This document shows positions 21,716-41,454 of a DNA stretch of 64,000 bases, piece by piece (position 1 is the first letter of the stretch; each line of letters opens with the position of its first letter). Origin of the DNA: Parasedimentitalea marina. GTDB lineage: Bacteria; Pseudomonadota; Alphaproteobacteria; Rhodobacterales; Rhodobacteraceae. The translations under genes and the position numbers were made by a program. The stretch spans positions 3,038,001 to 3,102,000 of the forward strand of contig NZ_CP033219.1 in NCBI RefSeq assembly GCF_004006175.1, given 5' to 3'. The notes beneath the pieces are model-generated. The model searched no databases. It was not told the origin of the DNA and saw only the letters and a program-made list of their open reading frames with translations.

Positions 21716-21781
21716 GAAAATTCGTGAGAACCTACATGTTTGATGCCGAACGAAAATTCCCAGACCGAACAGCGAAAAAAT

Positions 21782-24070
21782 ATGACATTTAACTTTGATT
21801 CCATGTCCCCGGCTGATTTCGAAGATTTGACCCGCGACCTCATCGGGCGAGATCAATCCTGCCGATTTGAGGCTTTTGGACCTGGACCGGATGGTGGCGT
21901 CGATGGGCGTCACTCTACATCTGATGGGGTGATCGTCTTACAGGCCAAACATTATCGAGGTTCTGGTTTTTCAGGTCTCAGTCGACAAATGCGCAAGGAA
22001 CGCGCGACCATAGATCAGCTCGCAGCGGAACGATACATATTGGCGACGTCAGTCTCCCTTACTCCTGCAAATAAGAGGGCGCTCGCAGACATTATTGGCC
22101 CGAGCCTCAAAAGCTCTTCTGACATTCTAGGATTTGAAGACCTTAACGGACTTCTGCGGACGTATGATGATGTCGCCAAGTCTCACATCAAATTGTGGTT
22201 GTCCGACACTGCAGTTCTAAAGCGTGTGCTGCACTCTGCCACTCATAACTTCACTACCATCACTCGTGCTGATATTGCAGCTAAGCTCAAGGTTTATGCC
22301 CAAAATCCAAGCTTTTCTAAAGGACGGAACACTCTCGAAACAGAACGAATTTTGATCGTTTCAGGACCTCCTGGTGTGGGAAAAACAACGCTCGCTGAAA
22401 TGCTTTGCTACGCATATGTAGGTGAAAAATGGGATTTGATTGCATTGCGATCACTCGATGAAGATTTCGCCAGGATCGACGACAGTCGTAAACAACTTTT
22501 CTTTTTCGATGACTTCCTTGGCCGCATCGCCTTAGGCGAGCGGGCGCTTTCAACACAAGATTCCGATCTCGCTCGCTTTCTAGCGCGCGTCCGCCGAACA
22601 CCGGCTGCTCGTTTTATCCTTACCACAAGAGCTTATATCTATGAACAGGCACGGCTCGCCTCAGAAGCTCTCTCCGACCAACGTTTGCAGGTCGCAAGCT
22701 ACGTCCTAGATGTAGGCGAATACACTAAACGCATCCGAGCGCGGATTGTTTACAATCATCTCACGGTCGCAGGCGTTCCTACCACGCATGTACGCGCACT
22801 TTTGGAAAGTGGGACGACCATCGAGATTGTTGACCATAATAACTTCAATCCACGTATTGTCGAATGGATGACCGACGCAGGTCACGTCGCGCACGTTCCC
22901 GCCGATCAATATGCGGAAGACTTTATTGAAGCCCTCGATAACCCTGAGCGCATCTGGGACAAGCCCTTTCGCAACCATATTCCTAGGCGGTGTCGTCATC
23001 TTCTCTTTGCTCTGTAATTTCTATCGGAATATGGCTCAGATATTGACGAACTCCACGCGCTCTTCGACAATCTTCATCAGCGCTTATGCGCCGCACATAA
23101 TCTCTCCCACGACCTCAAGGATTTCGAAGAATGCTTAAGGGTGTTGAAGGGTAGTTTCGTCGCCATTGTTAACAGGAGGGTATCTTTCATAAACCCTTCA
23201 GTCCGTGACTATCTGAAAGGCTATCTTAGCGATAAGGGGCCGTTGATAACGATGGCGAGCAGTGCAACAACAGCAAACAGCGCGAAGCAGATCTTCGAAC
23301 AATTTCGACGTATCCCTAGTGTTGACGATGCTGATTGTAAGGCCATACTTGAGCGATTTTCTGACTTTGTCATGCGCCTAGATGATATTCCAGTTTGGCG
23401 ACCATCATCTGATAACTCGGGGAATTTGACATTAGGGGATATGGGGCATGGCCGCCGTATCGAGCTGCTAATCGGTTGGTGGCAGATTTATCCCTCCCCA
23501 ATGTTCATTGAAACTGCGAATGCCATTGCGCTAAGCCGAGTCAATTCATTCTCACCGTGGCAAGATGCAAGCGTTTTGGGCAGCATTCTTGTCAGATATC
23601 TTGCACTGCCTGATAATGATCGCGCTCCGCTTGAAGAAATTGTTGGTTTGGTCGAGCAAGCAATCCATGAAATGTTTGAAAGATCACTTGACCCAGACGA
23701 TCTAGAGCGGCTTATCAACACGGTCGACGAAAACGAAAATTCGCTGGGGTCGTTATTCGAGACGGACATTGCAACTGCAATTCCTCAGCTAATCGAAAAC
23801 ATTGGCGAAAACCTTGACCATGTGGACTCTGACTCAACACTTGGCGAATTTGCCACAACAATTAAAAAAATGGCCAAGCGTGTTGGTCACGACCCAAATT
23901 CGGTAGAAATTGCGAAAGAAGCGATTCAGCGTCGAATTCAAGAAGTTGATGAGCACTCGGTGGGAGATAGCGAAATGTCAGTTACCGGAGAGTATCCACG
24001 TACCTTCGATAGGTTTGATGATCAGGACCTTATGAGTTTGTTTGCTTCACTTATTACTGACGATAATTAA
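21782..24070 (+). pseudogene. Mrr-type nuclease fused to nSTAND-like NTPase, interrupted by one ochre codon
   Basis: The N-terminus is a restriction-endonuclease-like (Mrr) domain: SPADFEDLTRDLIG, GPDGGVDGRH, then VLQAKHY, giving the D...QxK catalytic pattern. A STAND-type NTPase follows, with Walker A SGPPGVGKTTLAEM and Walker B FFFDDF, then sensor RFILTTR. The frame stops at TAA 23015-23017 after HLLFAL. The same frame then continues open for 350 codons (FLSEYGSDIDELHALFD ... SLITDDN) to 24070, and the sequence on both sides reads as one domain. A single substitution made the stop. Intact length would be about 762 residues. ATG 21782 is my preferred start; ATG 21743 is also possible. The likely role was anti-phage defence. 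Confidence 0.85.
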
Positions 24071-24104
24071 CCTTATTAGGAGAGTTGCAAGTTCCTTCGC
24101 GAAA

Positions 24105-24168
24105 GTCCGCAATGACGGATCGCACTGCAGCATCTAGAAGGAGCAGTGAAGGTCCGGTTTGGGCCGAA
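24105..24168 (+). repeat. Short intergenic repeat, copy A
   Basis: About 64 bp sharing GTCCGCAATG, GCAGCATC and GGTTTGGGCCG in the same order and similar spacing with 28167-28230. It lies between the nSTAND pseudogene and the nuclease gene. Weaker relatives occur at about 25620-25680 and 29090-29115. Non-coding. Confidence 0.6.
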
Positions 24169-24183
24169 GCAGATCAATTTCGG

Positions 24184-25494
24184 TTATTGACCGCGTTCGA
24201 ACATGTAAGCCATCCCCTCTTTGATTCGGCGCATGTCAAATTTAGACCATGTCACATGATCAATGATGCTCCTTTGATTATCGTATAGGATCAAACTGCC
24301 ACCCTCATTTGGCAGCTTCAATTTACCTTTCGACCGCCCTTTCAGTCGTAACGACTCTCCACTTTCGATTGATGCATCGACCGTTGCCTGACGTCCTTGT
24401 CCATCCACCATCAGCCAATTCTTGAGCGTGATTTTACTGTCCCCCCGATTGTAGAGAGAAACCCACTCGTTTTTTGTATCCTCGCCCGTCGGGTCGATCA
24501 TTGCGGCATTGATTACGACTTGTCGTTCAGACAAGGGAATAATTTTCGTTCGGTGATCGGTACCTTCCTCGACCACATCTTGGAAGGCGCCGACAGGTAT
24601 CCGCTCCGGAACCGATGAAACGTTGAACTTTTCATTTCGAGCTTTGCGATTGTGATAAAACAAAGGGTTTCGCGTATAGAGTTCCTCTCCGAAGTTGATC
24701 CCGGTCATGTCTTCCAACTCGCTGATTGTAACTTGATAACGCCTGTCTGTTTTGACGGTTGCCGCACCTTTGCGGTCACGTAGAACGCGTTCATCTTGAA
24801 AAATGGCGAACGCCTTCACGCCAAGCTTTTCCTTCGGTTTTTCGCTTTTGGTCCGATAACAAATTACTTTGAAGAAGCCGGATGGAACGCGAGCTGAACT
24901 TACATCTGATAAATGCACAGCTCGGTCGAGATCGCCATAAATCGGACCTGTAAACACAATAAGCCGATCATTAGCATCCTCACTGAACTCTCGAACAATA
25001 TCTTCCTCCAGAGCTCTCCACTCATCTCTGTTCAGATTCTCATGCTGAAGTGACGAATTGGCATAAATAAATGTCGCCTTGCCAGCCTTGTCAGACTCGG
25101 CATTCGTATTGCCCCACATGGCATTGTGGCGCATTACCATGTGTCCGCGGTCATAGGGGTTTGGGATTTTGCGACCTGATCTCGTCTTACGGTCTTTATA
25201 GAATTCATTGCCGAGCTGGTTCGTTATCCCAATATCTTTGTCTTTGGTCCACGACTTCTTACCCTTCTTACTGCCAAGTGGTCGAAGCTTGTCCTGATCC
25301 ATGTTAAATGCGGAATAAATCAGTTGCTTCGTGTGCTCGTTCATAACAATGGTGAAGTGCAGGTGGTCCGAATATATTCCTTTTCGAAGGACGCCTGGTT
25401 TTCTCAGCACCGACCGCGCCAGTTTCGGATCGAATTTTGGCAATGGCACTTCAATGCCATCACCAATGAACTTTGAATCATATCCTAAGGTCAT
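24184..25494 (-). CDS. DNA/RNA non-specific endonuclease (NUC1) with C-terminal lamin-tail domain
   Basis: 436 residues. Residues ~30-290 form a beta-beta-alpha-metal nuclease of the NUC1 family: DRGH at residues 115-118 gives the general-base His, and SSLQHENLNRDEW holds the metal-binding Asn. These enzymes cut DNA and RNA without sequence preference. Residues ~325-425 look like a lamin-tail domain (LTD): NEWVSLYNRGDSKITLKNWLMVD, which often occurs on bacterial nucleases as a binding module. No signal peptide is apparent, unlike many NUC1 nucleases, so self-toxicity must be controlled in some way. It diverges from the caspase operon, with 315 bp between. Confidence 0.88.
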   Translation of the reverse strand: MTLGYDSKFIGDGIEVPLPKFDPKLARSVLRKPGVLRKGIYSDHLHFTIVMNEHTKQLIYSAFNMDQDKLRPLGSKKGKKSWTKDKDIGITNQLGNEFYKDRKTRSGRKIPNPYDRGHMVMRHNAMWGNTNAESDKAGKATFIYANSSLQHENLNRDEWRALEEDIVREFSEDANDRLIVFTGPIYGDLDRAVHLSDVSSARVPSGFFKVICYRTKSEKPKEKLGVKAFAIFQDERVLRDRKGAATVKTDRRYQVTISELEDMTGINFGEELYTRNPLFYHNRKARNEKFNVSSVPERIPVGAFQDVVEEGTDHRTKIIPLSERQVVINAAMIDPTGEDTKNEWVSLYNRGDSKITLKNWLMVDGQGRQATVDASIESGESLRLKGRSKGKLKLPNEGGSLILYDNQRSIIDHVTWSKFDMRRIKEGMAYMFERGQ

Positions 25495-25809
25495 TTTAGA
25501 TTAATCCTCCGACTTAACTTCCTTTTGTAAAATACTTTCGCACTCTACAACATGACGGAGCAGTTGTGACAACTTTTCAGTCAAGTGAGCAGCATGACCA
25601 AAGTGAACATCTCCTTTGGTAAACCGCGCCGCAGCATCGCAACCAATCGATCAACGGCAGCTTTGGGCCGAAATCACGGGTGCCGCGCCACCGCGGAGTT
25701 CGGCAAAGATGCTTGTGATTTGGACAATCGCTTGATCCGATTTGTACGAAAGTTGCTTCAGACATTGGTCAGTGCTAGGAAGGTTAGAGTATTTATCGGA
25801 TCAATTTAT
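25495..25809. other. Divergent intergenic region between nuclease and caspase operons
   Basis: Holds the promoters for both directions and, at about 25620-25680, a weak relative of the short intergenic repeat (GCCGCAGCATC ... GCTTTGGGCCG). A frame from 25585 reads through in phase with the next gene but has no coding character before 25810. Confidence 0.55.
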
Positions 25810-26238
25810 ATGAAAAGAACAGCTTTCCTATCCGTTGCCGCGTTTGTTTTGCATGCGACACGTGTTTTCGCTGAGCCCCAAGCGGCGACCGAAGCTTATG
25901 TGGCTTCTGACAGTGAAAAGACTTGGACAGTCACGGCCTTTGTCCGGAATCTTGGCGATGAAGAGTGCAAAGAAGGTGAAGAGTATACGTTTCGGGCATC
26001 TGGCGAAGTGACGCACCATCTATGCGATGATGCCAAGTCGACCGAAACAAACTACAATTGGACTTTGCGATCTGATGGTATCGACGGTTTTTTATCCTTC
26101 AACGGAACAGAGTACAGGTTGACTGCATGGACTGAAACCAACGACGATCTTGGTATCGAAGTTGAGAAACTCAGCTTGCGTGTCGAGAGTGAAAAAAATG
26201 TTGAAACTGCCGACATCGAAATGCAGAGTGTGCAGTAG
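25810..26238 (+). CDS. Small exported protein, first gene of caspase operon
   Basis: 142 residues. Signal peptide MKRTAFLSVAAFVLHATRVFAEP, then a ~120-residue acidic domain likely rich in beta strands (KTWTVTAFVRNLG, YRLTAWTETNDDL). Two cysteines (EECKEGEEY, HHLCDDAK) may pair in the periplasm. I take the ATG at 25810 because the leader begins there; the frame is open from 25585. The next gene starts 3 bp after its stop, so it is the first cistron of a tight three-gene operon. No known family recognised. It may be a partner, inhibitor or substrate of the caspase-like protein. Confidence 0.75.
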   Translation: MKRTAFLSVAAFVLHATRVFAEPQAATEAYVASDSEKTWTVTAFVRNLGDEECKEGEEYTFRASGEVTHHLCDDAKSTETNYNWTLRSDGIDGFLSFNGTEYRLTAWTETNDDLGIEVEKLSLRVESEKNVETADIEMQSVQ

Positions 26239-26241
26239 ACC

Positions 26242-26715
26242 ATGACAGATAAGGACCGTTGGGAACTACGCATAAAATTCTTCGGAGCCGTTTTTGCCGG
26301 TCTCAGTATTGTTGCCAGTGTGTTCATCTATTTGGATGGGAACAGGGCCACGCTTGAACGCGAGAATAACCTCATCGCAAAGCGCGATGAACTACAATAT
26401 CAGCGCGATCTATGGGACGAGCGCCGTGCGGCTTATCGAACGTTGGCAGCAACGCTTGGGAGCATGGCTGCTGAGCTGGATGCGGGGAACACAATCTCAA
26501 ATGCGACAAGGTCTGCGGTGAACACGGCCTATTGGGGCACGCTCGTGCTCGTTGAGTCTGATGCAGTGGAAATGCACATGGTCCGCTTGAGAAACGACCT
26601 TCGAGATTTTGAGCGCGGACGGATTGATGCTGATAAGATCAGACAACGAATTCATGCCATCGTTGAAGCATCGCGTTTGCATTTAAAGGAGGTCGGTGAT
26701 GGAGCGCTTCAGTAG
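26242..26715 (+). CDS. Membrane-anchored coiled-coil protein, second gene of caspase operon
   Basis: 157 residues. One N-terminal membrane helix (residues ~13-31, FFGAVFAGLSIVASVFIYL) is followed by a charged, probably helical and coiled-coil domain (RATLERENNLIAKRDELQYQRDLWDERR ... FERGRIDADKIRQRIHAIVEASRL). No catalytic motif. It starts 3 bp after the upstream stop and overlaps the caspase-like gene by 17 bp, which implies translational coupling and probably related function. Topology is uncertain; the soluble part could be periplasmic, where it could meet the exported neighbours. Family not recognised. Confidence 0.75.
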   Translation: MTDKDRWELRIKFFGAVFAGLSIVASVFIYLDGNRATLERENNLIAKRDELQYQRDLWDERRAAYRTLAATLGSMAAELDAGNTISNATRSAVNTAYWGTLVLVESDAVEMHMVRLRNDLRDFERGRIDADKIRQRIHAIVEASRLHLKEVGDGALQ

Positions 26716-28117
26716 AAGTTGGCTATGTGCTCTTTTGATAGCACTTCTCCCAAGCGTCTCGTGGGCTAACGCTGATGTGCATATCTTATCCATCGGCAAC
26801 GGGCATTATGCTGCACGTCCGGGCGAACCAGCGGCAAATGTCACGGGGGCCAGCATATCAGCTCGTCTTGCTCTGTTGCGTCTTGGGCGACTGGTTGGCG
26901 CCGAGACTGCAATGTTGCTGCATTCGAAGCCTGGTCAATTGGTGTCTCGAAACGATGTTTTCGAGGCCATCGACGATCTTGTGCAGCGGGCGAAAGCAAC
27001 CCCGAACGATGACCGGTTGATTGTCTACTACAATGGGCACGGCTTTGGCGAAGGCATCGGATGGAACGCCTTTCTGCAACCTGGCGATGTCATTATGCCA
27101 TCTGAGCTAAATTCATTTGATCCCGAGATTCTTGCGACTGACTTGGTGTATGTGGCTGAAATCGTTGATACGCTTGAGCGCTCCGAGATACCCTACATGT
27201 TGCTAATCGATGCTTGTTATGAAGGTGAGAGCGCCTCCTTTGCTTCCCCGGTGCTCACCGAGACTGCCATTGGCAACCTCCGCGACGTCGCAGATGTCCT
27301 CCGTTTCTTTAACCAGTTCCGAGGACCCAATCCGGTCGTTTTTTCCGCTGAGCCCGGCACTGTTGTGGAAACTGTGGCGCCACCTCCCTCGGTGGGTTTG
27401 GATCAAGTGACCATTGGCCCGTTGGCACGACGATTGGCGCTTGCATTGGAAGAAATTGGCCAAAACGACTTGATTGTTCAGAATCTTGTCGATCGTCTCA
27501 CGGACAGAGAGCTGGACAGACAGACATCCCAAGCGGTCTCTCATTTTGAGGTCGGCGATTTTCGGCAGATTGTCTATCGACCATCCGTGGTTGAAGTGAA
27601 CACACGCATAGGAACCTCCTCGTTGGCAGTCGCCACGCCGCTGGCAAATGTTGCACCCGCATTAGAAACCCAGTCTGCCTCAAGGGGCGTGCTTTCCGCA
27701 ACACTTCAAATGAACGGTCCAAAGGGAGAGTGGGTCCTAGATGACCAGACGCGAGAATTTGTTCTGGGTCAAGACGATCTAGAAATCGTAACTTTTGAGG
27801 CTGGGGAAATTTCTCTCGTATTCTCAGGTGGCGGAGAAGATTGGGACGTCAATTTTGCGGCACCTAGCGGCGCTTCTTTTGAGCGAGGTATGACTATCAC
27901 AGCCAGACGGTTCTTTTTCCAAGAGAAAAACGAAGGCGGGCTTGAGATTTCTGGTGATGGGCGAGCATGTAACGAAATCGAGGGCAATATTGAAGTGAAT
28001 GAGGCATCTTTTGATGCAGACGGACTTGTTGCACTGGAACTTTCGTTTGAACAACGTTGCGACGGACAATCTACTCTTCTTAAAGGGAATTTTCAGATCG
28101 CCTTGGACACCCCCTAG
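26699..28117 (+). CDS. Exported caspase-like (peptidase C14) protein
   Basis: 472 residues. Signal peptide MERFSRSWLCALLIALLPSVSWA. Residues ~25-300 form a caspase-hemoglobinase fold: the catalytic His is residue 114 in VYYNGHGFGEG and the catalytic Cys is residue 173 in LLIDACYEGES, both in the expected context after beta strands. The remaining ~150 residues are an unrecognised, beta-rich C-terminal domain (EWVLDDQTREFVLG ... LELSFEQRCDGQ). ATG 26699 has AAGGAGG 6-7 bases upstream; a GTG directly before it is possible. Most defence-linked bacterial caspase-like proteins are cytoplasmic; the leader peptide puts this one in the envelope. Its substrate is unknown, but the operon partners are exported or membrane-bound. 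Confidence 0.88.
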   Translation: MERFSRSWLCALLIALLPSVSWANADVHILSIGNGHYAARPGEPAANVTGASISARLALLRLGRLVGAETAMLLHSKPGQLVSRNDVFEAIDDLVQRAKATPNDDRLIVYYNGHGFGEGIGWNAFLQPGDVIMPSELNSFDPEILATDLVYVAEIVDTLERSEIPYMLLIDACYEGESASFASPVLTETAIGNLRDVADVLRFFNQFRGPNPVVFSAEPGTVVETVAPPPSVGLDQVTIGPLARRLALALEEIGQNDLIVQNLVDRLTDRELDRQTSQAVSHFEVGDFRQIVYRPSVVEVNTRIGTSSLAVATPLANVAPALETQSASRGVLSATLQMNGPKGEWVLDDQTREFVLGQDDLEIVTFEAGEISLVFSGGGEDWDVNFAAPSGASFERGMTITARRFFFQEKNEGGLEISGDGRACNEIEGNIEVNEASFDADGLVALELSFEQRCDGQSTLLKGNFQIALDTP

Positions 28118-28166
28118 ATTGAAGCCTACATTAGTTTAATCACGGTATGCGGTGCGCCAAATGAAT

Positions 28167-28230
28167 GTCCGCAATGCGGGCTGCAAGCGCAGCATCAGAA
28201 GAATTGGACGAGTGGCTGGTTTGGGCCGCA
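28167..28230 (+). repeat. Short intergenic repeat, copy B
   Basis: Same order of blocks as copy A at 24105-24168 (GTCCGCAATG, GCAGCATC, GGTTTGGGCCG), same strand. Located between the caspase-like gene and the next membrane protein gene. Confidence 0.6.
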
Positions 28231-28335
28231 AGTAACTTACTATCACGAATATTTCCGAAGCTTTTGCGCCGCGCCTGATGACTGTAGAGGGATCTTACCA
28301 TAAGGGTTTGAGTCAAAAGTGTGTTGAGGGTAATC

Positions 28336-28980
28336 ATGCAAGATTTTTTCTACGCTGCCTGTCTATTGTCGCTTGTGGTTGTTTGCTCCCTTGCATCCAA
28401 GTTTTTGGTAGCGAGGGTTAAATCAGAAGTATTTTGGGAGCAGACAGATTACTTTTGGTACTCCCTTGCTTTAATCGGTGTTTTGGCGTTTTCATGGGAT
28501 TTCCAAACTTCTCGAAACCAAGACTCTGTGCAACAAGCGGAAGACAGTTTACGCAGACACTACAACAACAGCACGCTCCTCTTGACGGAGTTTCTGTCAA
28601 AAAGTTGTACATCTGACAGCGTGAACACCTGCGAATTTGCAGAAAGCTACCTATCCGCAATAAGTCGTTTCAAAACATCGAGCCGATATCCCGGTGGAGA
28701 AATAGAATTTCATGGCCAGCTTTTCCGCAATCCGGCCCACCTCTGGGTTGACCTTATCGGTGAACTAGAAGAGCCTTTAGCAACTGTACCGCTTCAATTT
28801 GCAAGTTTCGAAGCAACGGCAATCACCGATGCACTCGGAGAATATCGTGCACTAGCGGAAAGACGTCAAAAATTCCTGCCGCCCTTTGCGTATGCGGTCC
28901 TCGCTTTTTTTGCCGTCGTTGGAGTAACCCTTAAGTTCGGCAAGGTCCGTCTAAAAGTCCAGAAGATTCGCAAGGGGTGA
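28336..28980 (+). CDS. Membrane protein of unknown function
   Basis: 214 residues with two N-terminal membrane helices (FFYAACLLSLVVVCSLASKFLVA; YFWYSLALIGVLAFSW), a ~130-residue hydrophilic middle with two cysteines (KSCTSDSVNTCEF) and one C-terminal helix (FAYAVLAFFAVVGVTLKF) followed by a basic tail. The odd number of helices puts the termini on opposite sides. GAGG lies 7 bases before ATG 28336; GTG 28321 is an alternative. It is downstream of the caspase operon on the same strand but separated by 218 bp and a repeat. No family recognised. Confidence 0.7.
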   Translation: MQDFFYAACLLSLVVVCSLASKFLVARVKSEVFWEQTDYFWYSLALIGVLAFSWDFQTSRNQDSVQQAEDSLRRHYNNSTLLLTEFLSKSCTSDSVNTCEFAESYLSAISRFKTSSRYPGGEIEFHGQLFRNPAHLWVDLIGELEEPLATVPLQFASFEATAITDALGEYRALAERRQKFLPPFAYAVLAFFAVVGVTLKFGKVRLKVQKIRKG

Positions 28981-29355
28981 AATTTCTTCTCTATCCTTTG
29001 TCTTGATACGTTTCGTTCATCATATGACCCGCCGAGGGCTATTTCATGCCCGCTTACCAATAGCTGCGCTGTAGCAATAATGCCCAAGGGTCCGAAAGTC
29101 AGGTTCGGGCCGAGAGGAGAAAGTGCAGATCTGCGTGAGTTCGGTCTTGGTGGGGATGCAGTAGAGTTTCAAAAGTGGGCAATTTCACTTTCCCTAGGCA
29201 CGTATTTGAAGGACGGCAATGGATTTCGTTGAAGCACCAGAACTTAGAATTCGTAGAGGGCTTAGAACGCTTCCTCTGGTTTTTCATTTGCTAAAACATG
29301 GAATCCAGATGAGTACGGCATACAACCAGATGACGTCCTTTGTGTATGTCGTGCA
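28981..29355. other. Degraded coding region upstream of 29356
   Basis: A 50-codon frame at 29080-29232 (begins MPKGPKVRFGP) is in phase with the gene at 29356 but separated from it by several stops. A different frame at 29219-29434 encodes RRGLRTLPLVFHLLK, like a motif near the N-terminus of the downstream family. This suggests a frameshifted or rearranged 5' end of the next gene. Confidence 0.4.
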
Positions 29356-31065: not shown

Positions 31066-31974
31066 TCAGAACAACGGTGTGTAGCCTCCCACAATCCTTG
31101 GGAAGATGCTTGGGCTCTGAAATTCCAGTGACGCGCCTAAAAATATCAACGAACTCTGACCGGCAATGTTCGAAAATAGGTCATTTTTGAATACCACCGC
31201 AAAAGAGGCAGCACTCTCGTCCGAACCTACTATGAGCCGATCAAGCGTTACAACCAACTCTCCTTCACCAATTCCGCAAAAATCGCCATGGAATTTGCTG
31301 CCGACCAACGTACCGTCGCCTGCGATGATCTTGAAAGGTGGTTGTGTTCGAAAATTCTCACCTTCCCCAAAGACTCTTAATTCGCGTTCGTTTGAGACTT
31401 CGATGGAATACTGTCTCGCAAAGGGGGCCGGGCTTGAACAAAGCTCTGTGGATCGCCATCCAAGGCGCGCATCCGTCACAAAGCTAAACTGAGCTTCTCC
31501 CGGATTGAGTACTGTAAAAGTTAAGACGACTTCATTTGGCGACGAAACAGACGCTTGCACGTCCGTCACGGCCGCGAAATCTATTTCGTCGAAGAAGATT
31601 GGCAACCTAAGATGATTTACTTTGCCCTGCTGGCTCCAATCAAAATTTACTGCCAGTTCAATGCTTCCGAAAATGATGCGGGCATCTTCTACACGTTCCT
31701 CGATGCAATAGTCTAAATCGGCGGTTGACCCTACATCACGTATCGAAAAGTTGACAGGTGTAAGGTCATATGAAGTGCCATCTTCATAGATGACTCGCAA
31801 GATTGGTTTGACGATTTCAACGATCTCAAGGAGGCTTCGGTGGGCGGTTGATGCTTCGACACTTACAACGCGCGATGTGGCCGGGTCGCACAAATCTTGT
31901 CCATACACTACGCTTACTGGACAGACACCGACAAACAACGCGACAATCGCCCGAATGATTGATCTAACGTTCAT
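31066..31974 (-). CDS. Exported hypothetical protein
   Basis: 302 residues. Signal peptide MNVRSIIRAIVALFVGVCPVSVVYGQ, then a probably all-beta periplasmic protein (long alternating strands such as VVLTFTVLNPGEAQFSFV) with about four cysteines after the leader (DLCDPA, YCIEE, LCSSP, DFCGIGE). No known domain recognised. Its start faces the zinc-ribbon membrane protein gene 46 bp away, so the two share a compact divergent promoter region and may be co-regulated. Confidence 0.7.
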   Translation of the reverse strand: MNVRSIIRAIVALFVGVCPVSVVYGQDLCDPATSRVVSVEASTAHRSLLEIVEIVKPILRVIYEDGTSYDLTPVNFSIRDVGSTADLDYCIEERVEDARIIFGSIELAVNFDWSQQGKVNHLRLPIFFDEIDFAAVTDVQASVSSPNEVVLTFTVLNPGEAQFSFVTDARLGWRSTELCSSPAPFARQYSIEVSNERELRVFGEGENFRTQPPFKIIAGDGTLVGSKFHGDFCGIGEGELVVTLDRLIVGSDESAASFAVVFKNDLFSNIAGQSSLIFLGASLEFQSPSIFPRIVGGYTPLF

Positions 31975-32020
31975 TGTGCTCCATCCTGAAATTTATTTTT
32001 GCTACCTTAAGGATACACAG

Positions 32021-32650
32021 ATGCAAGATGCAGACACAAGCATCGGCCAGAACGCAGATGCTGGGGCAGAAGAAAATACTGGCCTAGCTCCTGACAGCGA
32101 CAAGATCCAACCAGAGAATGCTGTTCCCAATCCCGTGCTAGAAGAGGCCCCTCCGCTATGCATTGAGTGCAAACACGTAATCCCCGCAGGAGCCCTAAAA
32201 TGTAAAGAGTGCAACTCCTTTCAAGATTGGCGACGTTTCCTTGCTCTTAGTAGCACAACGTTGTCTCTGATAGTCGCACTGCTTTCCGTCTCTGGCATCG
32301 TCGTACCGCTTTTGATCGAAACGCTATCCGAGAAAAAGGCGGTCCTTGCGTCTAAGGTCGTATCAATCGGCGACGTCAATATTACTGTTCTTGTCGCAAA
32401 TAGCGGTACTCTCGATGGATATGTTGGCACCGTTTCAGTTCTGGCTGACGGCTCAGAGCACGGTTCAGGCACCCAACTATTTTCGACGGTTAAGGCATCC
32501 TCTAGTTTGCCTATAGAACTCTCTTTGAGAGAAAATCAGAGAAATTTTATTTCAGCAGGCAAGGACTGCGAGGTCCGTATTCAGCTATTAGACCACGCGC
32601 TTCAAGACAAAACTGAACAGCTTAAAATTGCATGCTCCGCATTCCGCTAA
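32021..32650 (+). CDS. Zinc-ribbon membrane protein
   Basis: 209 residues. An acidic, disordered N-terminus precedes a zinc ribbon (CIECKHVIPAGALKCKEC, two CxxC knuckles), then one membrane helix (residues ~76-98, LALSSTTLSLIVALLSVSGIVVPLLI) and a ~110-residue C-terminal domain predicted to be beta-rich (VSIGDVNITVLVANSGTLDGYVGTVSV), probably outside the cytoplasm. AAGGA lies 7 bases before ATG 32021; the frame is open to 31790 but upstream codons are antisense to the neighbour. It could sense or scaffold at the membrane. Unknown function. Confidence 0.7.
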   Translation: MQDADTSIGQNADAGAEENTGLAPDSDKIQPENAVPNPVLEEAPPLCIECKHVIPAGALKCKECNSFQDWRRFLALSSTTLSLIVALLSVSGIVVPLLIETLSEKKAVLASKVVSIGDVNITVLVANSGTLDGYVGTVSVLADGSEHGSGTQLFSTVKASSSLPIELSLRENQRNFISAGKDCEVRIQLLDHALQDKTEQLKIACSAFR

Positions 32651-32721: not shown

Positions 32722-33696
32722 CTAGTTTTGGTCTCCAACGACCTGTTGCGCTATTAGTTTTGAGGAGTGGATAACACCCTGGAGTGTTGATCGGGTGATC
32801 GGGCTATCCAACCCTCTTCGGTCTAAGTCGTCGAATATGGCTTTGGCAAGAATGTCCAGTCGCTCCGCAGGTTTGAGATGGGCCGTTATTTCTCGGATAA
32901 GTTTACCGTCGGTCTCTTGCCGAGCTTCGAGCGCTATTCGCATGCCTAGCGCCGCGGCCGCACCAAGCAAATTGAGCCCGGGCACCCCACCCACAGCTTC
33001 TTCGTCACGATTCACCATCTCAATGGCGCATATGTCGGCTTCTTGTTCCATCTCGCTGCGTCGCGTTATTGGAACAGCGACATTTGGGTTTCGAATTTCA
33101 TCAATATGACCTAACGCAATATGGCAAACCTCATGGTTGAGTATGAACCCAAGCGCGTGAACAAACGGGCCCGCAATGTCGAAGTTTAGATTGCGGTTCG
33201 GCGGATATTTGGAAAGATCAACCGTTGTACCGAGCAGCTTCGACGCCACATCCATGAAAAATGGCAGGCTCATTTCGCGCTCTGCAAGCAATGGGATGGA
33301 TTGGATATGCCATGCCTCAAATAAATCCAACACACCGACTTGGTCCGATTGAGAGTTCAGGAATTGTCCTACGATCAGTGATGCTGATCCAAAAAACATG
33401 ACCTCGACGAACCCAACATCAAGGATGACGACGCTGCCGTCACCGCCAACTCTGGCATCATATCTTGCGTCATCACAGATTTTAAGCTCAACACCCTCGA
33501 TGGAGGCCAAAAACGCATCCGAAAGCACGCCACGTTCATGAAGCCGCTTTGGACGGTTGTAGAAAATGTCATCGATGTCGGATGAAATCGCCGCGTATAG
33601 TTGACTGTTTTCAGGTGAGGTGCAGGCATGCGCCGATTGGATGCTTCCGGCAAAGACAGAGATCGCAAAAGCCAATGCAACGTAGCGGTTCTTCAT
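32722..33696 (-). CDS. Exported HExxH metallopeptidase (M48-like)
   Basis: 324 residues. Signal peptide MKNRYVALAFAISVFAGSIQSAHAC. The zinc site is HEVCH at residues 188-192 (ILNHEVCHIALGH), followed ~25 residues later by EQEADICAIE, the gluzincin-type third ligand seen in M48-like peptidases. GGAGG lies 6 bases before ATG 33696. No membrane segments after the leader, so it should be periplasmic and soluble. It converges on the zinc-ribbon protein gene. Substrates unknown; could process envelope proteins of this cluster. Confidence 0.82.
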   Translation of the reverse strand: MKNRYVALAFAISVFAGSIQSAHACTSPENSQLYAAISSDIDDIFYNRPKRLHERGVLSDAFLASIEGVELKICDDARYDARVGGDGSVVILDVGFVEVMFFGSASLIVGQFLNSQSDQVGVLDLFEAWHIQSIPLLAEREMSLPFFMDVASKLLGTTVDLSKYPPNRNLNFDIAGPFVHALGFILNHEVCHIALGHIDEIRNPNVAVPITRRSEMEQEADICAIEMVNRDEEAVGGVPGLNLLGAAAALGMRIALEARQETDGKLIREITAHLKPAERLDILAKAIFDDLDRRGLDSPITRSTLQGVIHSSKLIAQQVVGDQN

Positions 33697-34042
33697 AATT
33701 GCCTCCAGTCGTCGAAAAATTGAATTAAAATTAATGTACAGATCAACCCATCGCAATTGATACCACAAATTGCCGAACTTGCGGAACTTGCCTTTCCTTC
33801 GTCCGTGTTGTGTTAATTCGAACTGCATGAGATTTTGCGCTTGCAGCGAATGTCCAGTTCGACGGGCGTCGCCGCAGTGACGGTTTTATCAGGTAAACGG
33901 CAGGAACCGATCGAAAAAACAATCCGCTTACCTTCAGCTAGTGGGAAGCTAGCAACTTTTCTTGGGGGATCAAACGGGGGCTTTTCCCCCTTTGCGAGAT
34001 GGTAATGTAGTACATTACACAGCTTGCCATCTCTGTTACTTT
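33697..34042. other. Intergenic region with hairpins before the broken resolvase
   Basis: No gene. GGGGG-cttt-tCCCCC near 33976-33990 forms a short hairpin. GTAATGTA-G-TACATTAC (34002-34018) is a perfect 8-bp palindrome with one central base, close to the resolvase stop. The latter could be an operator or recombination-related site. Confidence 0.5.
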
Positions 34043-34685
34043 TCAACAGCTTACGAAGCCCTGAGCATCTTTACCGGTTCTAGTCCCGACAGCAGGCAAA
34101 GGGTATTCTAACCCGAGCCGATGAAAGCCTCGTTGCAGGGTCAGACGTGAAACCTCCAACAGCGCCGCGACATAACGGCAGGGTAGTTGGTCAACGCGGA
34201 TCCAGTCATAGGCGTCACGGATCGTTTCCCCCGAAAGCTGGCAAGGTTGCCCGAGCTGCACACCGCGTTTGCACACCGCGTTTGCGTGCCGCGTTCAGCC
34301 CCTGTTTGGTACGCCTGGAAATAATCCGCCGCTCAAACTGCGCAAAGCTCGCCATGATGGTAAAGAACAACTCTCCCTCTGCTGTGCTGGTGTCAATGCG
34401 CAACGACAGAATACGGAAATGCACACCGCGCTGTCTTAGAGCATCAGCTGTCAGCATTGCATCGATAGAACTGCGAAACGCCCGGTCCAGATCAACCACA
34501 ACCAGCGCATCCCCAGACCGCAGCCGTTCCAACACACTGTCAAAAACCGGGCGGGCCGAAGCCACTGCTGAAAGGTGCTCAATATGGAATTCATCGCATT
34601 CATTTTGCAGCTGCAAGACTTGACGGTCTGCTACCTGCGCCTTGGTGGACACTCGGATGTAGCCGATGTTGCGAGATTTAGCCAT
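34043..34685 (-). pseudogene. Serine resolvase/invertase, frameshifted by a 13-bp tandem duplication
   Basis: Starts at ATG 34685 (MAKSRNIGYIRVSTKAQ, with the catalytic Ser in RVST). It continues through a Tn3-resolvase-like domain (VVVDLDRAFRSSIDAM, LFFTIMASFAQFERRIISRRTKQGL). At 34258-34283 the 13 bases GCACACCGCGTTT are repeated in tandem, shifting the frame. The correct C-terminus is found in the next frame down to 34043 (KRGVQLGQPCQLSGETIRDAYDWIRV...), a helix-turn-helix DNA-binding tail. Deleting one copy restores a ~209-residue protein. Related enzymes invert or resolve DNA; the partner site is not evident. Confidence 0.8.
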
Positions 34686-34843
34686 ATCGGGCGAGCCTGA
34701 TCGTAAAGGATCCTCACTGATCAGGTTGTTCGGGGTCGCGATTGCGTCCATCGCCGACTGCGAAGCCCCAGTATTTCCACCATTTCTATTTACCGATGAT
34801 CGTCGAATCCGTAAAGAGTCATTCTGAACAAAAACCATGGAAT

Positions 34844-35185
34844 ATGAACAGCATAACAGGATGTATAGGTGCAATCGGGATGAGTGCGATCTGTGCAATC
34901 TATCCACAAGAATCTGCTGCTGAGGGATTTACCGGCTCGGAATTTACGGAATGGTCAGAGGCCGGGCAAAACAATTACATCGAAACTTCGGTGACGATGG
35001 CAGGGATGGTCTTTAGCCAAACTCATCCCAGCGTCGCGACCTGTATCAATTACTGGTATTTTGCGAGCGCATCCGGCGACAGCGAAGTGAAAATGATCCG
35101 TGACACCGTTGAGCAATATAATACAGCCCACCCTAGTGGGGTAATTCTGGCGGTAATTTTGCGGGAATGCCCGTTAGACAGTTAG
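34844..35185 (+). CDS. Small exported protein, Rap1a/Tai-like
   Basis: 113 residues. Probable leader MNSITGCIGAIGMSAICAIYPQESAA, then a ~90-residue domain with two conserved-looking cysteines (ATCINYWYFA, LRECPLDS) and VEQYNTAHPSGVILAVIL. This resembles the end of Rap1a/Tai-like periplasmic immunity proteins. The similarity is by eye and weak. The gene ends 4 bp inside the convergent gene at 35182. There is no toxin gene beside it. Confidence 0.55.
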   Translation: MNSITGCIGAIGMSAICAIYPQESAAEGFTGSEFTEWSEAGQNNYIETSVTMAGMVFSQTHPSVATCINYWYFASASGDSEVKMIRDTVEQYNTAHPSGVILAVILRECPLDS

Positions 35186-39885: not shown

Positions 39886-41454
39886 ATGACAGACACGCCG
39901 CAAAAAGCAATTATCTATTGTAGGGTCTCCTCACGCACGCAAGAAGAAGAGGGCCACGGCTTACAAAGCCAAGAGGTCCGCTGCCGCGAATTTGCCGCCA
40001 CCAAAGGCTATGATGTCGCCATGGTTTTTCCCGATACGATCACTGGCGGCGGTGATTTTATGCGCCACCCCGGCATGGTGGCTACTGCTGGCGTTTCTAG
40101 ATGCGCAACCCAATGAGCGTTTTACCGTCATCTTCGACGACCTCAAACGCTTTGCCCGCGATACCCGTTTCCACCTTGATCTGCGCGACGCCTTCCGCTT
40201 GCGCGGGGCCAGCATCGAATGCCTGAACTTCAAATTCGACGACACACCAGAGGGTGAGTTCATCGAAACCATCATGGCCGCCCAAGGCGCATTGGAGCGC
40301 AAACAAAACGGACGGCAAGTCGCCCAGAAGATGAAGGCTCGCATGCAGTCTGGCTACTGGATCCACAATCCACCCGTCGGCTATCGCTACGAAACCGTCA
40401 AAGGGCATGGCAAGCTTCTGATCCCGAACCCGCCGTTTGATGCAATCATCCGCGAGGCCATCGAGCGCTATGCCTCTGGCCATTTCCAAACCCAGGCTGA
40501 GGTGAAACGCTACTTTGAGAAGTTTCCTGACTTCCCGCGCAATAAGCACGGCGAGATTCGCCAACAGCGTGTGACCGACATCCTCAGCCAGCCTCTTTAT
40601 ACCGGATATATCTGCAGTGAGGTCTACGGGATAAACTGGCTGAAAGGCTACCACGAACCGCTGATCTCTGTCGAAACCTACGAGAAGGTCCAGGCGCGCC
40701 GTAATGGCGTTGCCAAGGCCCCAATGCGCAAGAATATTGGCAATGACTTCGCCCTGCGCGGCTTCGTCTGCTGCGCCGATTGCAACACGCCGCTGCGTTC
40801 AAGCTGGACCAAAGGCAAAACGAAACGCTACCCGTATTACCTTTGCCAATCCAAGGCCTACGCGAGCTACGGCAAATCCATTGCCCGCAATCAGGTGGAA
40901 TCCGACGTCGGAGACCTGATCAAACAACTCCAACCCAGTCAAAAGCTATTCATCCTGGCCACGGCAATGCTCAAATACGCCTGGGACCATCAGCGAAACC
41001 AATCTGCCGAAATCGTAAGCGCCGCCAAACGCAAAGTCATGAACATCGAAAAAGAAATCGACGCGCTGCTGACCCGAATATTGGCTGCCAGCAACAACAC
41101 CGTCATCGCCAGATACGAAGACAAAATCGCTGAGCTTGAAAACAGAAGGCTGGATTTTCCGAAAAAGCAACGTTGCAAGCTTCTGACAGCGCAACCTTCG
41201 AAGAAAAACTAGAACCCGTCCTGGCGTTCCTCGCAAACCCTTGGAAACTATGGGACTCAGGCCACATCGCCCTGCGTCGCATAGTCCTAAAACTCGCCTT
41301 CGCAGACCGCATTTTCTATTGCCGGAAAGAGGGGGCTAGAACACCTAAAATATCCTTACCGTTCAAGGCTTCAGGGGGGATCCCGCAAGGGGAAGTCCTA
41401 AATGGTGCGGGTGAAGGGACTCGAACCCCCACGCCTCGCGGCGCCAGAACCTAA
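39886..41454 (+). pseudogene. Large serine recombinase (island integrase) with two frameshifts
   Basis: The N-terminal resolvase domain (AIIYCRVSSRTQEEEGHGLQSQ, catalytic Ser in CRVSS) breaks near 40085 after HPGMVA; the next frame resumes at LLAFLDAQPNERFTVIFDDLKRFARD, consistent with a 1-bp insertion. The recombinase and zinc-ribbon domains follow (FVCCADCNTPLRSSWTKG ... YYLCQSK), then a coiled coil. A second break near 41157 (one T missing from TTTTT) shifts ELENRRLDF to the frame EKATLQASDSATFEEKL ... ALRRIVLKLAFADRIFYCRKEGARTPKISLPF. The tail runs into tRNA-Leu. AGAGGAG precedes ATG 39886. As it stands it cannot make the full integrase, so the island should be locked in place. Confidence 0.85.

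Follow-up and report, generated by a model that had tools for sequence, protein, structure and literature searches.

Gene organization of the locus

The window analysed here, a stretch of 64,000 nucleotides from the genome of Parasedimentitalea marina, contains a tight operon of three genes on the forward strand (P0001, P0002 and P0003, hereafter the trio), set between a divergent nuclease gene and the gene for a membrane protein, with copies of an intergenic repeat around these units. The features, in order of position, are:

24086..24170, + strand: copy 1 of an intergenic repeat of ~85 bp, beside the nuclease gene
24184..25494, - strand: P0004, a NUC1 (Endonuclease_NS) plus lamin-tail-domain (LTD) nuclease with no leader; divergent neighbour, judged to lie outside the trio
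25593..25676, + strand: repeat copy 2, between the nuclease and the trio
25810..26238, + strand: P0001, small protein of 142 aa, predicted to be exported on account of its leader (codons 25810-25872)
26242..26715, + strand: P0002, 157 aa, with one membrane helix near the N terminus (residues 13-31; 26278-26334) and a charged domain; member of the 'YWG-LVLVE--VE--M' family
26699..28117, + strand: P0003, caspase-like protein of 472 aa, predicted to be exported (leader 26699-26767)
27038-27040 and 27215-27217: codons of the putative catalytic pair of P0003, His114 and Cys173
27728..28108, + strand: unnamed C-terminal domain of P0003 (residues 344-470), also present in apparently exported proteins of Photobacterium and Streptomyces
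28144..28234, + strand: repeat copy 3, after the trio
28321..28980, + strand: membrane protein with no family assignment, lying after the trio as a separate unit flanked by repeat copies
29045..29117, + strand: repeat copy 4, after the membrane protein gene; the most divergent copy

A check of the open reading frames agrees with the preliminary description of this locus as regards the three genes, their strands, their leaders and membrane helix, and their spacing: P0002 begins 3 bp downstream of P0001, and the ATG of P0003, at 26699, lies inside the end of P0002 in a 17-bp overlap. For P0001, the ATG at 25810 was judged the best choice of start, giving the leader MKRTAFLSVAAFVLHATRVFA, and its low-confidence predicted model has eight strands and no helices. 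By its gene spacing the trio is an operon, and the leaders of P0001 and P0003, as read from the sequence, would predict export. The membrane protein said to follow the trio is likewise there, with hydrophobic segments at both ends by eye.

The intergenic repeats are imperfect. Their identification as an Rfam RNA was rejected (no match at E<=1 between 21 and 34 kb), as was that of a strong stem-loop (z-scores of -1.48 to 0.11), and a scan for promoters and terminators gave results at chance level. The wider neighbourhood includes an Mrr/nSTAND3 gene (PADLOC PDC-S73, 9.1e-125 for the first ORF), a Lit-like peptidase and two ORFs that appear recombinase-like by eye (34215-34907 and 39992-41212). 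The dip in G+C content is modest: 0.47-0.52 over 22-38 kb, compared with 0.53-0.57 between 6 and 16 kb and 0.53-0.59 beyond 37 kb. Values down to 0.50 are also reached in the opening 6 kb of the window. A tRNA-Leu was considered as an attachment site paired with a direct repeat close by and set aside, as no stretch of 12 or more bases from its 3' end recurs in the window.

P0003 and the caspases of the Rhodobacteraceae

Both catalytic motifs previously ascribed to P0003 are present, His114 within YYNGHG and Cys173 within IDACYEG, in the order (His, then Cys) seen in Peptidase_C14 and the orthocaspases. The Pfam Peptidase_C14 profile matches residues 82-177 (E=0.0015) at 18.7 bits, below its cut-off of 21.4; the PADLOC 'caspase' profile matches at E=2.7e-4, and the NCBIfam profile for EACC1-type caspases (NF047832) at E=0.0069, with 15.9 bits for a cut-off of 140. 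A single-sequence AlphaFold model of the protein is poor (mean pLDDT of 37); in it strands and helices alternate, His114 comes directly after the third strand and Cys173 directly after the fourth, and the top PDB match is procaspase-1 (E=9.4e-3). Nothing judged relevant appeared in the PDB sequence-match tables for P0003, for a two-row caspase profile (A1) and for P0004. The C-terminal domain matches a Photobacterium protein (34% over 128 aa) that has a GlyGly-CTERM match, and also a Streptomyces protein with a leader; this piece has no Pfam match at E<=0.1, and its structural model is too poor to judge an Ig-like fold of the canu caspase kind.

Caspase-domain matches occur in 210 of 394 Rhodobacteraceae genomes, with at least seven in P. 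marina itself. Leaders were called on 52 of 60 sampled caspases of the family versus 45 of 199 controls, the caller being a home-made heuristic, distinct from SignalP, that also takes the P0002 helix for a leader and for which the controls set the background. The sample is a non-random one of 70 loci (30 returned by the family search and 40 plus-strand rows among the strongest matches listed), from which duplicates were removed and ORFs running off the locus dropped, and weak caspases like P0003 are under-represented in it. Given this frequency, the idea that a leader on a caspase is an oddity in the Rhodobacteraceae was dropped, and the earlier view of a periplasmic caspase as unusual is weakened by the caspases sampled. 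The rarity lies in the trio, and not in the exported caspase. An adjacent upstream ORF of 90-300 aa with an N-terminal hydrophobic segment accompanies four of 71 sampled family caspases; by eye, one of these ORFs looks exported (L108), one looks membrane-like (L127) and two are doubtful.

The matches to P0003 in the family, other than itself, are partial and range in E from 3.8e-6 to 3.1e-4, while profile A1 picks out P. marina alone from the 394 genomes, so that this caspase profile shows no second trio there. In 385 genomes of the class, A1 gave 14 matches at E<=0.01, the own one included; 15 of the 19 loci returned besides its own look like generic caspases by motif and four do not. Scans of genome contigs with P0003 and A1, and of viral contigs with P0003, A1, P0002 and P0004, returned no relative; they reveal close relatives only, because they are seeded from a few exact peptide patterns. 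The portions of the literature covered state no function for the leader-bearing caspases of the Rhodobacteraceae, and a rare caspase version with two dedicated partners, next to defence-type genes, offers a small and testable unit for the study of caspase function in the bacterial envelope.

Comparable gene rows and relatives of the partners

Apart from ordinary caspases, a single relative of P0003 was found, P0007, on a conjugative plasmid of Sagittula stellata (30% over 145 aa). Three genes overlap there by 14 and 25 bp, and P0007 is the product of the third; they encode putative exported, membrane and exported proteins, with a leader on the first, a membrane helix on the second and a leader on the third. 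The proposed order of small exported protein, membrane protein and exported caspase therefore recurs once, and the trio is not absent from other genomes. P0001 and P0002 give no significant BLASTP alignment with their Sagittula counterparts (P0005 and P0006, respectively), the caspases alone aligning, so that the layout common to both genomes could be convergent. Neither Pfam (E<=0.5) nor NCBIfam (E<=0.1) has a family that matches P0007, which carries His129 in GHA where P0003 has GHG and owes its leader to an annotated TTG start. The pairing of its Cys245 with Cys173 comes solely from a MAFFT alignment of two rows that spans a long insertion, and the BLASTP match ends before that residue. Another row of Sagittula genes (L008, 15285-13054) resembles a second trio in its annotation, but the third gene product appears to be a TPR protein, and a TolQ-type gene lies upstream on the same strand.

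P0001 and P0002 reach the cut-off of no family in Pfam or NCBIfam, and match none in PADLOC at E<=1. Their portrayal as two unrecognised partners stands for P0001, for which the plasmid search returned no homologue, and falls for P0002, which belongs to a wider, dispersed family of single-helix proteins. Peptidase-type genes lie alongside P0002-family genes in two of six plasmid neighbourhoods. Consecutive genes on psymA of Sinorhizobium meliloti encode a C1 peptidase, a caspase and a P0002-like protein, which adjoins the caspase gene as in the trio; that caspase, unlike P0003, is leaderless and has an extra N-terminal part, and a P0001 counterpart was sought in the annotation only. In Paraburkholderia a P0002-type gene has two protease-like ORFs downstream (by eye), and other neighbourhoods of this type are without an annotated peptidase. 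A second P0002-family seed brought no new plasmid record, and L066 alone was taken further among five weaker matches of the family search. Against PDB sequences, the one match of profile A3 (2e-5) is a designed coiled coil, aligned along the helix region.

Function of the trio and its relation to known systems

P0003 shares with the orthocaspases (prokaryotic metacaspases, Peptidase_C14) of the Alphaproteobacteria a His/Cys pair in a putative caspase core, and with those sampled from the Rhodobacteraceae a leader, which is common among them. It differs from orthocaspases in its sub-threshold C14 match, in a C-terminal domain of its own and in the overlapping genes upstream for a membrane and an exported protein. 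Orthocaspases are abundant in the Alphaproteobacteria, according to the part covered of a 2012 survey, where just 104 of 671 sequences had any predicted transmembrane helix (PMC3501461). As described in the portion covered of the canu study (PMC12799240), the KaeCanABC locus resembles the trio in being a three-gene caspase locus of defence islands whose caspase has a further C-terminal domain, but its operon includes a gated MBL-fold nuclease, whereas that of the trio has none and the nearby nuclease is an Endonuclease_NS on the other strand. Membership of canu was rejected for want of such a nuclease downstream of the caspase; P0003 moreover has a leader, whereas that portion of the text never mentions 'periplasm'. 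The EACC1-associated caspases, linked to P0003 by a weak sequence match, were set aside too, on a score far below the NF047832 cut-off, the leader of P0003 and the lack of any EACC1-named match among the ten neighbourhood proteins scanned (Pfam, PADLOC, NCBIfam).

We regard as evenly balanced the proposal that the trio is one functional unit, an envelope caspase-family protease with two dedicated partners, near defence-type genes. P0003 would be exported through its leader, its C-terminal domain being of a kind present in apparently secreted or surface-bound proteins; P0002, with its inner-membrane anchor, would probably hold or gate the caspase there; and P0001, small and apparently strand-rich, would probably bind it in the periplasm as an inhibitor or sensor. 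Disturbance of the envelope, for instance when a phage enters or a rival delivers a toxin, would then free or switch on the protease, and cleavage of envelope proteins would bring the cell to a halt. We infer complex formation, inhibition or sensing, activation and, from the neighbourhood, a defence role, as well as the export step. In protease/inhibitor operons of the staphopain-staphostatin type a small strand-rich protein is encoded beside a cysteine protease; the likeness to P0001 and P0003 is one of layout, the fold of P0001 being a low-confidence guess. It is quite unlikely, in our view, that the trio embodies caspase-based conflict or programmed death outside the cytoplasm, with P0002 as inner-membrane sensor and P0001 as periplasmic regulator controlling an exported caspase whose action would destroy the envelope upon breach by a phage or rival. 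Such a system would parallel, in the envelope, the bacterial caspases known from the cytoplasm, and the trio bears on whether caspase-type immunity extends past the cytoplasm.

The abundance of caspase-domain matches in the family and in P. marina itself, together with the frequency of called leaders in the sample, speaks for P0003 being an ordinary exported caspase with two accidental operon neighbours, engaged in housekeeping or stress-time turnover of envelope proteins rather than in conflict. Its distance from the family caspases and the absence of its nuclease neighbour from the seven other genomes of the genus searched count against this explanation, which we hold to be possible, if on the unlikely side. 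The leaders, the surface-type C-terminal domain and the nearby defence-type genes would also suit a secreted effector acting on other cells, with P0001 and P0002 serving for immunity or trafficking. The ten neighbourhood proteins scanned include no member of a secretion-system or polymorphic-toxin family, however, and to our knowledge the order of small exported protein, membrane protein and enzyme corresponds to no toxin-immunity gene order, which makes an effector highly improbable.

P0004 is indeed the divergent NUC1-LTD nuclease previously reported, with both domains above cut-off (Endonuclease_NS, 9.1e-30, 104.4 bits for a cut-off of 23; LTD, 2.6e-12, 47.5 bits for 34.3), DRGH at 115 and no hydrophobic leader. 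We give least credence to activation of this nuclease through cleavage by P0003, a principle demonstrated for canu (PMC12799240, in the part covered) and echoed in Sinorhizobium mexicanum, where consecutive genes encode a caspase with no leader, one further protein and a NUC1-trypsin fusion. Leaders are present on P0003 and P0001 and absent from P0004; a repeat copy separates the trio from P0004, which is encoded on the other strand; and canu nucleases are of the MBL fold. In nine nuclease neighbourhoods, with incomplete gene tables, one annotated caspase was seen (leaderless and of another type) and no trio, and no such nuclease is annotated within 8 kb of the Sagittula trio, so that the suggested recurrence of the gene order beside NUC1-LTD genes did not emerge. 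A functional link between trio and nuclease was rejected on the export signals, the strands, the repeat and the single caspase neighbourhood in nine. P0004 looks like an unrelated neighbour of the trio, presumably an independent gene within the same defence-rich stretch; its full-length relatives number three, all in Vibrio, and one of their neighbourhoods was examined.

A possible three-gene unit around a putative exported caspase

The three genes lie at the positions given in the preliminary description. The gene for P0001, a small protein of 142 aa, has its preferred start at 25810; that for P0002 (157 aa) follows after a gap of 3 bp, and that for the caspase-like P0003 (472 aa, with His114 and Cys173) begins at an ATG at 26699 and overlaps the P0002 gene by 17 bp. 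By eye, typical leaders can be recognized at the N-termini of P0001 and P0003, with a basic start, a hydrophobic core and an Ala before the cut. Residues 13-31 of P0002, with a mean hydropathy of 2.22, make up its only hydrophobic helix. In domain searches the caspase core of P0003 scores under the Pfam cut-off, and neither P0001 nor P0002 has a family match above cut-off. We see an even chance that these genes constitute one unit, made up of an exported caspase and two partners, and we regard it as doubtful that they form a conflict system acting outside the cytoplasm. No paper in the literature searched was recognized as describing such a trio.

Full-length P0003, searched against 72,556 plasmid records, yields matches to its C-terminal domain only, in Photobacterium and Streptomyces, and with its N-terminal 334 residues as query the sole record matched is that of Sagittula stellata E-37 (E=3e-3). 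Within the family, 5 of 394 genomes match at E<=0.001, namely P. marina itself and four partial matches that by eye resemble ordinary exported caspases. The S. stellata plasmid protein, P0007, aligns with P0003 in direct comparison at 30% identity over 145 residues (E=1e-11), a match that covers the shared SIG-G-Y start and, beyond the His, the QPGD stretch; for D-CY and PGT the pairing comes solely from a two-row MAFFT alignment. A profile built from both proteins retrieves only P. marina among the 394 family genomes and 14 of 385 class genomes, the remainder beyond P. marina being partial matches. Scans of genome-contig and viral-contig collections, which used exact peptide patterns and thus reach close relatives only, gave no P0003 relative or match to the two-caspase profile.

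The gene for P0007 (no Pfam family at E<=0.5) is the last in a row of three overlapping genes, with overlaps of 14 and 25 bp, in which P0005 has a leader, P0006 a membrane helix and P0007, provided that its annotated TTG start is correct, a leader as well. No alignment was obtained between P0001 and P0005 or between P0002 and P0006. Since an adjacent upstream ORF of 90-300 aa with an N-terminal hydrophobic segment is also found at 4 of 71 sampled family caspases, the matching layout at a single P0003 relative is suggestive and not proof. Close to this row, the same plasmid holds a second compact row (L008, 13054-16432, minus strand), in which a MotA/TolQ/ExbB gene comes first, followed by genes for two membrane proteins, the first of them small, and for a leader protein with weak TPR matches.

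The C-terminal domain of P0003 (344-470), for which no Pfam family was found at E<=0.1, matches two repeats (34% over 128 aa, 26% over 133 aa) of one Photobacterium protein, which itself matches GlyGly-CTERM, and a Streptomyces protein with an N-terminal leader by eye. Two cysteines are common to the domain and the Photobacterium repeats, and would fit an extracytoplasmic disulfide. AlphaFold models predicted without alignment have a pLDDT of 37 for P0003 and 47 for P0001. The former presents a caspase-like order of strands and helices (best PDB match procaspase-1, E=9.4e-3), and the latter eight strands, matching best an erythrocruorin subunit (E=0.037) and then alpha-1-acid glycoproteins (E 0.049 upward), which are lipocalins. 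Neither predicted model counts as evidence alone.

Predicted caspase export and the P0002 family

Peptidase_C14 is found in 210 of 394 family genomes at E<=0.01 (199 above cut-off), with at least seven matches in P. marina. A 2012 survey (PMC3501461) describes the Alphaproteobacteria as rich in caspases; of 671 prokaryotic sequences, only 104 were predicted there to have transmembrane helices, and the N-terminal helices among these were read as likely signal peptides. A signal-peptide heuristic accepts 52 of 60 complete caspase ORFs of the family (deduplicated, from 70 loci); among 199 long non-caspase ORFs, taken as a control from 399 kb of P. marina DNA, it accepts 45. Caspase export thus looks common in this family and, from the survey figures, not in prokaryotic caspases at large.

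P0002 finds matches in 6 of 394 family genomes at E<=0.01, its own included. One of them, P0014 (33% over 79 aa, E=5e-7), retrieves seven plasmid records, itself included, and six of these neighbourhoods were viewed. The P0002-like gene follows a C1 peptidase and a leaderless caspase (P0015) in Sinorhizobium meliloti, precedes two protease-like ORFs (by eye) in Paraburkholderia, and lies 3' of an N-acetylmuramidase gene in Cupriavidus; no annotated peptidase adjoins it in Rhizobium leguminosarum, Buttiauxella or Rhodobacteraceae M382. P0002 is therefore a module serving several settings. The S. meliloti psymA row (L076, 182-5411) comprises a TIGR02594 protein, the C1 peptidase, the caspase (which has additional N-terminal sequence) and the P0002-family membrane protein.

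The divergent nuclease and the intergenic repeat

The preliminary description had also raised, as a weaker point, a link between the trio and P0004, the divergent NUC1-LTD nuclease (24184-25494, minus strand). Leaders are present on P0001 and P0003 and absent from P0004, so that direct action between them is unlikely, and the link is likewise judged unlikely. The nuclease occurs in one of eight genomes of the genus, that of P. marina. P0004 matches 75 plasmid records; in three of these, all Vibrio, the match spans 80% or more of P0004. Nine nuclease neighbourhoods were viewed, one of the three Vibrio relatives among them. In Sinorhizobium mexicanum an annotated caspase lies two genes 5' of a NUC1-trypsin fusion; annotated caspases are absent from the other eight, PLSDB gene tables being incomplete and such counts lower bounds. 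Other peptidase genes nearby include an S8 peptidase in Vibrio (about 6.7 kb away) and Acaryochloris (about 1.9 kb), two M20 metallopeptidases in Rhizobium gallicum and a transglycosylase/C40 peptidase in Paenibacillus. The S. mexicanum plasmid row (L010, 3433-7977), with a leaderless caspase, a 525-aa protein without family and the fusion, resembles in appearance the reported protease-nuclease system canu, but its nuclease is NUC1.

An imperfect intergenic repeat of about 85 bp, with all copies on the same strand, delimits the nuclease gene, the trio and the membrane gene that comes after it (28321-28980, plus strand):

24086-24170, first copy
25593-25676, second copy
28144-28234, third copy
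29045-29117, fourth copy

A model made from these very copies scores them at E 2.7e-18 to 8.5e-11. Neither the rest of the window nor 399 kb of P. marina sequence yields a further copy over the threshold; the 399 kb contain one partial motif match (L093). Weakly similar stretches appear in 10 Rhodobacterales plasmid records (E 1e-4 to 0.2, 32-78% of the query), with no annotated feature over them. The four viewed adjoin ordinary genes. The repeat is therefore likely to be a dispersed element that does not belong to the system; its position between the units suggests that nuclease, trio and membrane gene arrived separately.

Genomic setting and neighbouring genes

G+C is 0.47-0.52 over about 22-38 kb and higher on either side (0.53-0.57 at 6-16 kb, 0.53-0.59 from 37 kb onward). 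By itself the dip is weak evidence, because the window opens with another low stretch of 6 kb (0.50-0.53). Recombinase-like ORFs were noted by eye in the same low-G+C stretch as the trio. Two further genes lie in this stretch:

21740-24070, plus strand, Mrr-type nuclease with nSTAND3 NTPase (PADLOC PDC-S73, 9.1e-125 for the first ORF and 0.0012 for the second)
32722-33828, minus strand, Lit-like phage-exclusion peptidase (PADLOC Lit 3.4e-6; NCBIfam PRK09672 3.9e-6, below its cut-off)

The Mrr/nSTAND3 gene is probably inactive, since it is split over two ORFs and frames. Known Lit is cytoplasmic. The Lit-like gene has an HExxH motif, and by eye an inner ATG would yield a signal peptide; it is perhaps an exported Lit relative. 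Two genes adjoin it, at 31066-31974 (minus strand) and 31790-32650 (plus strand), and their ORFs overlap on opposite strands; one has a leader and no Pfam, PADLOC or NCBIfam match, and the other, by eye, cysteine pairs and a membrane segment.
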